Below the pieces are notes generated by a model, which saw nothing but the letters and a program-made list of their open reading frames with translations, was not told where the DNA came from and ran no database searches. Of a stretch of 32,785 bases of DNA, positions 1 to 30,972 are shown piece after piece. A program made the position numbers and the translations under genes. Every line of letters starts with the position of its first letter. Positions within the stretch are counted from its first letter, which is position 1. Location of the stretch: assembly GCA_020073015.1 (NCBI GenBank), contig JAIQFZ010000038.1, positions 1-32,785 on the forward strand. The letters are read 5' to 3'. Origin of the DNA: Terriglobia bacterium. Its GTDB lineage: Bacteria > Acidobacteriota > Terriglobia > Terriglobales > Acidobacteriaceae.

Positions 1-1581
1 GTGGACCTGACGCGCTACCATCCGCGTCCGTGTTTGCAGTACTACATCAAGCGCTGCCTAGGTCCGTGTGTGAAGGAACTCACCACGCCCGAGATCTACA
101 GTGAAGCCGTGCGCGACGTGAAGCTCTTCCTCGAAGGCCGCCAAACCGACCTGGTCAAATCGCTCCGCGAGCGAATGGCGGAGACGGCCCAGCTCGAGGA
201 GTTCGAACGCGCCGCCCGCTATCGCGACCTGATCTCAACGGTAGAGCAGTTACAGGAGAAGCAGCGCATCGCCGCTGCCGAAGGCGACGACGCCGACGTC
301 TTCGGCTATCACTACGAAAATCAGATGCTCGCCGTGAACCTGTTCCACATGCGAGGAGGCAGAGTCCTGGATCGCCGGGAGTTCTTCTGGGAAGACCTGC
401 CCGAGTTCGGATCACAGTTGAACGATGGAGAGACGGGCGTCCCCGCCCGTCCAGGCGATGATCACGTAGGGACAGCCGCCCTCGGCTGTCCAGGCGAGCA
501 AAGCTCGCCAGCGACTTCCTTCCACCCCGCCGACTTTTTCTCTGCCCTAGTCAAGCAGCTGTACCTGGCCCAGCCCTACGTCCCCCGCAACATCTACGTC
601 CCCGTCGACTTCGAAGACCGCGAAGAGTTGGAAGAAGCGCTCAGCGAGCAACTAGCCGGCGAAGGAGGACGCGCCACCCGCGTCCACATCATCGTCCCGC
701 AGCGCGGCGACAAGCGCGAACTCATCGATCTAGCCGGCAACAACGCCAAGCAGTCCTACGATCAGCGCTTCCGAGTGATGAAGCCGAACGCCCGCGCCAT
801 CCAGGATGCTTTCCAAGACGCGCTCGCGCTCCCCGAACTGCCGAAGCGAATCGAGTGTTTCGACATCTCCCACATCCAGGGAGCTGAAACCGTAGCGTCG
901 ATGGTCGTCTGGGAAGAAGGCAAGATGAAGAAGTCCGACTACCGCAAATTCATCATCAAGACCGTAGAAGGCGTAGACGATTTCGCCTCTATGCGCGAAG
1001 TCGTCACGCGGCGCTACAAGCGGCTGCAGGAAGAAAAAAAAGCGATGCCCAGCCTCGTGCTAGTCGATGGTGGACTCGGACAGCTCCACGCCGCCGCCCA
1101 GGCCCTCGAAGAACTCGAAATCATCAACCAGCCGCTGGCTGCGATCGCCAAGCGCGAAGAAATCATCTACCTCTACGGTCAGGAAAACGACCCCGTCATC
1201 CTCGACCATCATTCTCCGGTACTCCACCTGGTCCAGATGATTCGTGACGAAGCCCACCGCTTCGCCGTCACCTTCCACCGCAAGCGCCGCCAGATCCGCG
1301 ACCGAGCCACCGAACTCCGCGAAATCCCCGGCGTCGGCGAATCCACCACCCGCCGCCTGCTCGAACACTTCGGCAGCCTGCAAGCCGTGAAGCAAGCCGA
1401 CGTAGCCGCTCTGTCGGCGGTCGTTACGAAGAGCCAGGCCGAAGCGATCCTCGAACATTTCCGAAACGGCAGTGAAGGTACCCACGGCAATTTGGGACCA
1501 CTCTCGACAGGGCGAAGCGGTCCCAAATCCTCTCCCGTGGGAGTTTCTTATGGACTCACCACGGTGAACAACAGGCCATAG
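1..1581 (+). CDS. uvrC: UvrABC system protein C (excinuclease subunit C), 5'-truncated by window edge
   Basis: UvrC makes both incisions around a DNA lesion in nucleotide excision repair, acting with UvrA and UvrB. The visible 526 residues start at the Cys-containing segment (RPCLQYYIKRCLGPC, about residues 9-23) that follows the GIY-YIG nuclease domain, so that N-terminal domain lies left of the window and the GTG at base 1 is just an internal Val codon. Then come the UvrB-binding UVR helix pair (about 52-87), the RNase H-like endonuclease domain with acidic residues in CFDISHIQG (D288) and LVDGGLGQL (D356), and a C-terminal helix-hairpin-helix region (about 439-472, IPGVG). Residues about 144-170 are an in-frame insert encoded by a three-hairpin repeat, at a position where UvrC normally runs straight on. 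The last ~35 residues are a non-conserved tail read through another inverted repeat, and the 3' end overlaps the convergent gene by 34 nt. Confidence 0.94.
   Translation: MDLTRYHPRPCLQYYIKRCLGPCVKELTTPEIYSEAVRDVKLFLEGRQTDLVKSLRERMAETAQLEEFERAARYRDLISTVEQLQEKQRIAAAEGDDADVFGYHYENQMLAVNLFHMRGGRVLDRREFFWEDLPEFGSQLNDGETGVPARPGDDHVGTAALGCPGEQSSPATSFHPADFFSALVKQLYLAQPYVPRNIYVPVDFEDREELEEALSEQLAGEGGRATRVHIIVPQRGDKRELIDLAGNNAKQSYDQRFRVMKPNARAIQDAFQDALALPELPKRIECFDISHIQGAETVASMVVWEEGKMKKSDYRKFIIKTVEGVDDFASMREVVTRRYKRLQEEKKAMPSLVLVDGGLGQLHAAAQALEELEIINQPLAAIAKREEIIYLYGQENDPVILDHHSPVLHLVQMIRDEAHRFAVTFHRKRRQIRDRATELREIPGVGESTTRRLLEHFGSLQAVKQADVAALSAVVTKSQAEAILEHFRNGSEGTHGNLGPLSTGRSGPKSSPVGVSYGLTTVNNRP
432..509. 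repeat. Three-hairpin dispersed repeat inside uvrC
   Basis: Three perfect short hairpins lie in a row: GACGGGCG/CGCCCGTC with a 4-nt loop (432-451), GACAGCCG/CGGCTGTC (471-490) and GGCGAGC/GCTCGCC with an AAA loop (493-509). The block is read in frame in uvrC as a Gly/Pro/Ala-rich insert. A related single hairpin (GTGGGCG TCCT CGCCCGTC) occurs downstream of glpX at 19588-19606. This layout matches intergenic repeat families seen elsewhere in the window, so insertion into the gene is the simplest reading. Confidence 0.75.
1481..1541. repeat. Imperfect inverted repeat at the uvrC 3' end
   Basis: The left arm has CCCACGG (1481-1487) and ATTTGGGACC (1490-1499). The right arm has GGTCCCAAAT (1519-1528) and CCGTGGG (1535-1541). 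The arms pair with a small internal bulge and an 18-19 nt loop. It falls between the uvrC helix-hairpin-helix region and the end of the convergent gene at 1548, where a bidirectional terminator would be expected, but there is no T-run, so the terminator role is inference. Confidence 0.55.
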
Positions 1582-6284: not shown

Positions 6285-6310
6285 GTGTGGCGCGGACATT
6301 CCTGTCCGCG
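6285..6310 (+). repeat. Repeat family B stem-loop, copy 1
   Basis: GTGTGGCGCGGACA TTCC TGTCCGCG: GCGGACA pairs with TGTCCGC around a short loop. It starts two bases after the TAA of the acyl-CoA dehydrogenase gene. Related copies are at 11796-11822, 11915-11941 (inverted) and 24954-24979. Confidence 0.8.
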
Positions 6311-6343: not shown

Positions 6344-6426
6344 CGATGTTGCGCATGGTTTTCGGTGCCGCAATGCTTCAGTGCTGGATAACGGATTTGT
6401 TCTCAGCGGCAGCTTCGCCCGCTGAG
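6344..6426 (+). repeat. Repeat family A, copy 1
   Basis: An element of about 83 bp that runs CGATGTTG, then a first hairpin around GCTTCAGTGC, the spacer ATAACGGATTTGTTCTCAG, and a second hairpin around GCAGCTTCGCCCGCTGAG. It aligns along its length with 17544-17629 and, in its second two-thirds, with 30909-30972. This copy is the most degenerate: the stems are imperfect. Confidence 0.7.
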
Positions 6427-10792: not shown

Positions 10793-11391
10793 GTGGCTAC
10801 TCCTCAAAGTGCCGGAGAAAGTGGCCGGAGCCTCCAAATCCCCGATCTTCGCCTTAAAGGCTTATTGAATTTAGGGTCTGTCGCTTTCAAAAAAACAAAC
10901 GATCGAGGAGCGCAAAGAGCAGGCTGCAGGTCACCCCACCCGGTGTGGCAATAAGTATATTCCAAATCGTCCGAGTCCAGACGGGGGAAAATCCGAGCGG
11001 GCCAGGCGTAATCAGAAGCAGAACGCGTGCTGCATACCGAGTGGATCGTCGAGGGCTCCGGCTAAGGGGCTGGAGGTAATTTCAATTATCGGAGTTTGGT
11101 AGAGCTCGCTTCCCAGGCTGCAGACAAACTCGCACTTCGCTGCGAAAAGGGAAGGGTACGAGTTTCAGATTTTGGGGTGGCGCCGCTCTTAGGTGTGAAC
11201 GTGAGTGCCGGCCTTTTCGGATAACCTCTGGCGTGAGAGCTGCGAGAACCCAGCCCCAGAGGGGCGCCTGCCAATAGCCCGGCGCTTCAGCGCCGGGAAA
11301 AGTGGGAAGTCCGAGCAAGTCCCGGAGGGAACGAGAATTCTCACGCACAAACCGCAGCGCTGAGATATCGATTTTGTTTTTCGCCCGCGCC
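10793..11391. other. Non-coding region with a perfect hairpin (11278-11297)
   Basis: About 600 bp without a supported gene. The right half has the look of dispersed repeat DNA, including a perfect hairpin CCCGGCGC-TTCA-GCGCCGGG at 11278-11297 followed by GTCCGAGCAAGTCCCGGAGG. The left half holds the upstream region of the 501-aa gene. Open frames crossing the repeat on the minus strand (to 11420) are artefacts of its low stop-codon density. Confidence 0.5.
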
Positions 11392-11795: not shown

Positions 11796-11941
11796 GTGTA
11801 GCGCAGACACTCTTGTCCGCGCACTGCTGGCGGTGTCTGAAGTGTGGGCTCTCAGGCAAACCTGCTTAAGAAAGGGGAACGCCCGCGCCTCAGCCGCGCT
11901 CCGCTGCATGCCTCGCGCGGACAAGAGTGTCCGCGCCACAC
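11796..11941. mobile_element. MITE-like element, 146 bp with 27-bp terminal inverted repeats (family B)
   Basis: The ends are GTGTAGCGCAGACACTCTTG.. at 11796-11822 and, on the opposite strand, GTGTGGCGCGGACACTCTTG.. at 11941-11915. They match at all but two or three of 27 positions. Each end can itself fold (GCGGACA/TGTCCGC). The interior encodes nothing recognisable. It sits precisely between the tricorn stop codon (11942-11944) and the AhpD-like start. Single-ended copies occur at 6285 and 24954. No target duplication was identified. Confidence 0.7.
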
Positions 11942-17526: not shown

Positions 17527-17667
17527 CAGGCTGCGGAAAAAGTCGATGTTGCACTTGATTTTGGGTGGCGCAGCGCTTCAGCGCTGCCCATAACCGGCTT
17601 GTTTTCAGTAGCGGCTTCAGCCGCTGAGGGCAAGACGCAGGTCGCGAAAAGGATTTTCCGCAACCTG
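17527..17667 (+). repeat. Repeat family A, copy 2, 141 bp with 14-bp inverted ends
   Basis: Ends CAGGCTGCGGAAAA (17527-17540) and TTTTCCGCAACCTG (17654-17667) are inverted repeats with one mismatch. Between them lie two perfect hairpins, GCAGCGCTTCAGCGCTGC and GCGGCTTCAGCCGC, separated by a spacer with ATAACCGGCTTGTTTTCAG. The core (17544-17629) matches 6344-6426 and 30909-30972. It fills most of the gap between the HPF-like gene and the next small gene; no gene is supported in 17371-17714. Confidence 0.8.
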
Positions 17668-19571: not shown

Positions 19572-19587
19572 TCCCAGATCGTGGAGA

Positions 19588-19606
19588 GGTGGGCGTCCTC
19601 GCCCGT
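19588..19606. repeat. Single hairpin related to the repeat inside uvrC
   Basis: GTGGGCG-TCCT-CGCCCGTC lies 17 bp after the glpX stop codon. It shares the core GGGCGTCC(C/T)CGCCCGTC with the first hairpin of the uvrC-internal repeat at 432-451. It could also act as a terminator-like structure, though no T-run follows. Confidence 0.5.
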
Positions 19607-19679
19607 CCCACCAGATGGCTCGCCCCCAGCACCATCAACCTCCGCCCGCTGATTACCGACTACTGACTCTTCGCCCTGC

Positions 19680-23715: not shown

Positions 23716-23807
23716 AAGCCGCGAAGCGGCGTAAGAATGCAGCCCACGGCGCAAGCCGTGAGTAGAAAGTGCCGCGAGAGCAAGCCCCAACGGGTCGAAG
23801 GAGACGC
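23716..23807 (+). repeat. Repeat family D, copy 1
   Basis: An element of about 90 bp that begins GCCGC-GAA-GCGGC, then GTAAGAATGCAGCC, CACGGC-GCAA-GCCGTG and a GCCCCAACGGG hairpin. It matches 29493-29585 over nearly its whole length. It lies about 80 bp after the end of the DUF4097 gene. Confidence 0.8.
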
Positions 23808-24953: not shown

Positions 24954-24979
24954 GTGTGGCGCGGACATTCCTGTCCGCG
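24954..24979 (+). repeat. Repeat family B stem-loop, copy 4
   Basis: GTGTGGCGCGGACA-TTCC-TGTCCGCG, identical in sequence to the copy at 6285-6310. It starts 32 bp after the Crp/Fnr stop codon. Confidence 0.8.
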
Positions 24980-29492: not shown

Positions 29493-29585
29493 TTGAGCCG
29501 CGAAGCGGCGTAAGAATGCAGCCCGCGGCGCAAGCCGTGGGTGGAAAGTGAAACGAGAGGAAGCCCCAGCGGGGCGAAAGAGAAG
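29493..29585 (+). repeat. Repeat family D, copy 2
   Basis: Same three-hairpin layout as 23716-23807: GCCGC-GAA-GCGGC, then GTAAGAATGCAGCCC, GCGGC-GCAA-GCCG(T), and GCCCC-AGC-GGGGC. It begins 39 bp after the protease gene ends and precedes the MFS gene. Confidence 0.8.
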
Positions 29586-30908: not shown

Positions 30909-30972
30909 GGGGTGGCGCAGCGCTTTGGCGTTGCGATAAGGACTAGTTTCAACAGCGGCTTTAGCCGCCGAG
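30909..30972 (+). repeat. Repeat family A, copy 3
   Basis: GGTGGCGCAGCGCTTTGGCG, then TTGCGATAAGGACTAGTTTC and CAGCGGCTTTAGCCGCCGAG: two hairpins as in 17544-17629, 5 bp after the MFS stop codon. Confidence 0.7.

Follow-up and report, generated by a model that had tools for sequence, protein, structure and literature searches.

The uvrC Locus and Its Three Hairpins

The window, i.e., the whole stretch of 32,785 nt analyzed here, is one contig (C220) of a soil-bacterium genome of 5.5 Mb in 245 contigs, and it begins within uvrC, of which the 3′ part is present (Table 1). The encoded protein matches Pfam UvrC_RNaseH_dom (E = 1.3e-57), UvrC_RNaseH, HHH and UVR as well as NCBIfam TIGR00194 above its cut-off, and its first 46 residues are found again with 100% identity on contig C85, so that the start of the gene presumably lies there. 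The reading frame remains open through three consecutive hairpins, read directly from the sequence, that fold as three stems (z = -3.67, with none of 200 shuffles equally good). The first-pass annotation had described perfect hairpins lying in frame in uvrC, and these are indeed present within 424–512 with stems of 8, 9 and 7 bp; it had also taken them for a single three-hairpin repeat, which proved to be two units in tandem, A and B, standing head to tail. The whole of 424–512 is spanned by only two of 49 BLAST places (40 of 131 candidates scored), its own site and C233:35062–35150, most of the places matching the B part. One three-hairpin element is thus ruled out by the copies, which show two units.

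Pfam UvrC_RNaseH aligns to the ORF in two stretches, the better one covering residues 175–255 (profile positions 41–115), and NCBIfam NF011263 spreads 451 profile positions over 489 residues, an excess of 38. It had been assumed that UvrC normally runs straight on at this point, but even the shortest linkers in its kin measure 13–17 residues, and the net insert therefore amounts to about 29 residues with respect to the relative G005. In the AlphaFold model (29-row alignment, mean pLDDT 79.3, pTM 0.56, a pLDDT of at least 70 in 379 of 498 residues), residues 137–171 form the sole internal stretch with pLDDT below 50, located between a strand that ends at 130 and a helix that starts at 176. The best Foldseek matches of the model are C-terminal halves of UvrC; the four UvrC sequences found among solved structures match residues 269–486 only, past the loop.

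Table 1. Features of the window and their positions.
Feature	Position	Strand	Description
uvrC, 3′ part	1–1581	+	contig begins within gene
Unit A	424–452	+	GGAG tag 427–430, hairpin 432–451; read DGETGVPARP
Hairpin 1	432–451		stem 8, loop 4, perfect
Unit B	463–512	+	CAC, GTAG 466–469, hairpins 470–491 and 493–509; read HVGTAALGCPGEQSSPA
Hairpin 2	470–491		stem 9, loop 4, perfect
Hairpin 3	493–509		stem 7, loop 3, perfect
Unit A relative, intergenic	19583–19608	+	3 mismatches to unit A; coding frame not on both sides
Acido-Lenti-1 RNA (RF01687)	23717–23762		within 88-nt repeat 23717–23804
Acido-Lenti-1 RNA (RF01687)	29496–29541		within 88-nt repeat 29496–29583
Acido-Lenti-1 RNA (RF01687)	11252–11297	-
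GTGTGGCGCGGACATTCCTGTCCGCG family	6285–6310, 24954–24979, 11796–11821		palindromic; two copies identical, one 85%
GCAGCGCTTCAGCGCTGC family	17563–17587, 30910–30934, 6363–6387		palindromic

Units A and B in the Genome and the Genus

Unit A, a GGAG-tagged relative, occurs at 34 places of the genome with up to 3 mismatches (18 + 16; 0 and 0 with the reversed-pattern control), and it is also found in uvrC of several congeners. One non-coding relative corresponds to the intergenic hairpin that had been pointed out around 19588 of the window. At the same tolerance the unit B pattern gives 59 and 56 matches genome-wide, many palindromes matching both strands, against 0 and 1 for the reversed pattern. 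The further genome copies that the first-pass annotation proposed to search for are therefore many.

The alignment of 29 copies of unit B reveals CACGTAG followed by a 9-bp stem with a 4-nt loop and then a 7-bp stem with a 3-nt loop, and the two helices show covariation (20 cells with both sides changed, vs. 4.6 in shuffles and 0–2 in slid controls). The covariance model finds at least 108 matches over many contigs of the own genome (106 distinct, since two pairs overlap), the uvrC copy scoring 79.3 bits. Unit B is present in 24 of 24 genus genomes, the own one included, with 2 to at least 146 matches each; these genome counts are lower bounds, about 150 candidates having been scored per genome. 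Outside the genus, a marginal match was obtained in one of 17 genomes. The tag is well conserved: among 58 non-genic copies its four positions are G in 57, T in 56, A in 55 and G in 58, and GTAG is found in all 29 copies of the model alignment, which had been picked by a pattern close to the tag. Upstream of the 58 copies there is a weak motif only.

With an unpaired tag at one end of a stem-loop, a high and dispersed copy number and head-to-head dimers (10 of 12 close non-overlapping unit pairs), which are the most frequent dimers in most GTAG REP families, unit B behaves like the REP sequences of GTAG type. It departs from them in size, since it measures about 50 nt and carries a second conserved and covarying hairpin instead of one stem-loop of 20–40 bp; the tag and first hairpin alone (26 nt) would fit. 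Because it works like a GTAG REP and has this second hairpin, it is named here a REP-like variant.

Other repeats were also noticed in the window. Rfam reports three matches to the Acido-Lenti-1 RNA, two of them within an 88-nt repeat of 89% identity. A palindromic family represented by GTGTGGCGCGGACATTCCTGTCCGCG looks like a second tagged REP-like family, and a third palindromic family is centered around GCAGCGCTTCAGCGCTGC.

Copies in Other Genes and Their Reading Frame

The A and B searches yielded 142 listings at 138 distinct places, of which 21 lie in 19 Pfam-recognised genes, 119 are non-genic and 2 are doubles. This census was made on 106 regions fetched around the listings, the window supplying its own region, by scoring codon preference (trained on 12 ORFs of the window) on both sides of the element and then searching Pfam; C118:18375 and C189:13145, where no Pfam family was recognised, were counted as non-genic. 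Some of the copies thus lie within other genes, the search for which was another proposed check. The hosts encode an ABC exporter, UbiD, CarB, MetH, an E2 acyltransferase, a POR-type oxidoreductase, two kinds of molybdopterin oxidoreductase, an RND transporter, PcrA/UvrD, MutS2 (two units; named by NCBIfam), MetRS, Dus, an LptC-like protein, a lipoyl ligase, Tgt, MnmG, ParB and UvrC (two units). ParB is a doubtful host, as the element precedes the first ParB domain and the upstream coding signal is weak.

The frames in which the 21 in-gene listings are read are strongly uneven: 13 are on the same strand in frame 0, five on the opposite strand in frame 0 and three on the same strand in frame 1, the other frames being empty. 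Among the 119 non-genic listings, five of the six frames are open in 96–97% and the frame with TAG in 34%. Against an open-frame null drawn from these, 13 or more of 21 in one of six frames has P = 1.6e-5, and none of 200,000 simulated draws equals the observed unevenness; with one placement per gene and without ParB, the figure is 12 of 18 (P = 1.2e-5). Four overlapping pairs exist among the 142 listings; the frame test left out the two doubles, and the other two pairs remain in the null. The favoured frame encodes small-residue peptides. A codon-phased target-site preference could also bias the frames.

When CarB is aligned to its E. coli counterpart, residues 355 and 389 fall next to chain positions 833 and 834 of the latter, with 33 residues in between. 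Across 23 genomes (G009 gave no loop), the CarB loop is unexpanded in 12, at 32–38 residues from anchor to anchor, and measures 43–66 in 11, with 59 in the own genome, and several of the expanded loops bear a recognisable REP peptide. Alignments of Tgt and MnmG break around the element in seven and eight congeners respectively and elsewhere run through or meet the contig end, a comparison that rests on alignment breakpoints.

The UvrC Loop Among Relatives

A total of 110 UvrC loci (30 + 80) were collected from genomes that are mostly fragmented assemblies; the linker was obtained from 98 of them, and 81 distinct loci remained after 17 duplicates were dropped. Their linkers range from 13 to 97 residues, relatives with 13–17 being among them, and 35 of the 81 contain 53 perfect hairpins of at least 7 bp in all, compared to a mean of 3.4 and a maximum of 9 in 200 rounds of synonymous-codon resampling. 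Over the 345 kb of these loci, the unit-B model gives 34 matches (E ≤ 0.05, with unit A accounting for part of the weaker ones), and 31 of them, from 26 loci, fall in the linker, which represents 3.2% of the bases. These 31 matches, which are non-independent observations, comprise 23 on the same strand in frame 0, one on the same strand in frame 1 and seven inverted. Five of the seven inverted copies read an Arg-containing frame, so that to say that only one frame is tolerated would be too strong.

Three families of palindromes occupy the UvrC loop, namely the kind of units A and B and two further elements. One of these, TGTCATCCTGAGCG...CAGGATGACA, is in frame and has variable ends; elements like it are carried by L093, L096, L097, L099, L103, L111, L114, L116, L117 and L122. 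The other is found around CGGGTCTCCGACCCG, some of its copies being bounded by GTGTGG and CCACAC. L108 has an inverted copy that contains a further, nested insert, with the frame still kept. Comparison with relatives, as had been suggested, thus shows that the insert is not conserved in the family: congeners have none, A only, B only, remnants or unrelated palindromes, and in some of them the stems are broken while the reading frame is kept. Universal conservation of the insert is ruled out by uvrC of the relatives. The interpretation of a palindromic element inserted into a coding gene is supported, the insert being neither conserved across the family nor alone in the genome.

On a UvrC tree calculated without the linker, the B-only label requires 14 changes for 16 rows, of which well-supported branches force seven, and it clusters no better than labels shuffled at random (146 of 500 shuffles needed as few changes); the 81-row tree was made by a quick method, 36 of its 78 inner branches are weak and L062 sits on a very long branch. 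Additionally, paired changes distinguish some stems of related loci (L039/L040 and L106/L130), which neutral erosion alone leaves unexplained and replacement by another copy would explain. The sister loci L106 and L130 have a REP insertion in common, and the top of the first stem differs between them through a paired change and carries a new loop, which looks like either replacement by another copy or compensation. Taken from sequence comparison, the UvrC loop bears signs of a recurrent sink with repeated insertion, loss and replacement.

Y1 Transposases

Eight Y1_Tnp matches were found in the own genome, seven of which exceed the cut-off. The match at C71:14229 is flanked on either side by GTAG palindromes, C71:14030–14079 being a match to the unit-B model; this single case with unit-B-like flanks out of eight has a weak Pfam score (24 bits), and a hairpin scan of the flanks gave no unit-B-like flank at the other seven. 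Close to Y1_Tnp at L035 and L038 there are hairpins with GTAG or GTGG that belong to other kinds, and a GTGG hairpin lies at a greater distance from Y1_Tnp at L032 and L033. Over 24 genomes, the copy number of unit B correlates with the number of Y1_Tnp (rho = 0.70, or 0.65 as a partial correlation on size and completeness), kinship being ignored in both and counts near 146 being lower bounds. The main text of Di Nocera et al. (2013; PMC3733652) finds a general correlation of that kind not obvious, and it cites the cutting of single-stranded REP DNA at GTAG by RAYT.

Origin and Fate of the Insert

The best explanation, with a probability of about 0.86, is that the uvrC insert consists of two REP-like palindromic mobile elements of a kind that spreads widely and survives in frame within tolerant loops. 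Elements A and B would have entered the coding sequence of a UvrC surface loop, separately or in turn, at a site predicted between the third strand and the next helix of the RNase H-like region. Their spread most likely involved single-stranded intermediates on which RAYT (Y1/HUH) transposases act, the route that has been published for GTAG REPs. Insertions would land widely, and those that shift the frame, place the TAG contained in the tag in frame or hit a folded part were probably lost as harmful; a minority in disordered loops would stay as a neutral Gly/Ala/Pro-rich peptide, mostly in the frame HVGTAALGxP. Such loops would gather, lose and erode elements over time and would therefore be sinks rather than carriers of a REP function in the protein.

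Several other explanations have to be considered. The frame bias, the open frames and the congeners in which stems break but the reading frame is kept point to translation of the insert. Strong consecutive hairpins resemble bypassing structures, which speaks for an insert that stays untranslated by ribosome bypass or RNA removal and leaves a normal protein; given the evidence for translation, this is hardly credible. Equally hard to credit is that the hairpins serve as a regulatory RNA or a terminator, or that they arose by chance in GC-rich coding sequence. The RNA fold is strong, but Rfam at gathering scores has no match at the uvrC hairpins and a terminator scan of 300–700 gives no site there, so that a regulatory RNA or terminator is ruled out; chance is likewise ruled out by the reversed-pattern and synonymous-codon controls, the 53 linker hairpins standing against 3.4.

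Two further readings concern the UvrC loop. That a single ancestral insertion was inherited vertically, with deletions and little repeated insertion, is improbable: the common orientation and frame of 23 of the 31 linker matches and the sharing of unit A by several congeners agree with it, whereas the three unrelated families in the loop, the nested insert, the inverted copies, the many changes on the tree (seven forced for the B-only label) and the separate insertions in other genes of the own genome all oppose it. Still less probable is a functional loop, in which REPs in UvrC, PcrA/UvrD and MutS2 would be kept for changed repair. The presence of three repair proteins among the products of the 19 host genes, the occupation of the UvrC loop again and again in many species, and the doubt expressed in the main text of PMC3733652 that repair genes were hit by mere chance are in its favour; on the other hand, 16 of the 19 hosts are non-repair proteins, presence is patchy on the tree for B only, relatives manage with 13–17 residues, and unrelated palindromes sit in the identical loop.

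A bolder reading, which we consider unlikely, though somewhat less so than these two, is as follows: palindromic elements of Terriglobales may be selected for translatability, to which the five mostly open frames and the small-residue peptides of the favoured frame would point, and a few loops of essential genes, above all UvrC, may be safe harbours in which elements are retained and exchanged for other copies. If so, element and loop would co-evolve, and loop length would be a lineage-specific trait of excision repair. REPs are usually called extragenic, and here 21 of 138 distinct places (about 15%) lie in genes, including carB, metG and tgt. The system offers a natural experiment in insertion tolerance, i.e., on which loops accept 20–80 extra residues, in which frame and with what speed of decay.

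Comparison With Known Systems

Palindromic elements of Rickettsia were reportedly treated by Ogata in 2002 and by Claverie and Ogata in 2003. The first-pass annotation had likened the insert to them, aptly as regards behaviour, since in-frame palindromes occur in several genes, and less so as regards the tag. According to the main text of PMC3733652, RPE-4 and RPE-6 are intragenic repeats of R. conorii of CGTC type with no dedicated transposase, and Rickettsia RPE are likewise short in-frame palindromes in genes whose products are likely to be functional proteins; the tag here is GTAG or GGAG. The insert of units A and B therefore works like an RPE and is none. Enterobacterial RU elements, as described in the text of Delihas (2007; PMC2759123), are also small mobile repeats with open frames in annotated genes, but they are longer MITE-like units (103–168 bp) in other organisms.

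Among the matches listed in a literature search on UvrC-linker palindromes, REPIN in coding genes, RPE and acidobacterial RAYT, the closest was PMC3733652; the string TGTCATCCTGAGCGAAG gave no match in that search. The main text of Di Nocera, De Gregorio and Rocco reports REPs within genes, many of them in genes for replication and repair, among these the excinuclease complex, and mentions flexible loops and the loss of inactivated genes, still suspecting an effect on repair and speculating on mutator phenotypes; that published speculation on REPs altering repair becomes directly testable. The term uvrC is absent from its main text, taken apart from Figure 7B and Additional file 3, and UvrABCD is present there, so that a uvrC with a REP may have been published before. 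GTAG REPs, as presented in this text, have in common with the elements described here a tag that lies external to a short stem-loop, dimers arranged head to head, genomes that encode tyrosine transposases, and in-frame copies in genes with repair hosts, UvrABCD being named in the discussion; unlike them, unit B possesses a conserved second hairpin that covaries. Moreover, unit B belongs to Acidobacteriota, for which the same text describes transposases with long terminal inverted repeats. It gives one same-site case, recB in two Xanthomonas species, in contrast to a UvrC loop that several palindrome families have come to occupy across many species, and the frame bias is measured here. Since intragenic REPs are already in PMC3733652, the kind is known, and what is new is the bipartite acidobacterial variant, the measured frame bias and the serial reuse of one loop.
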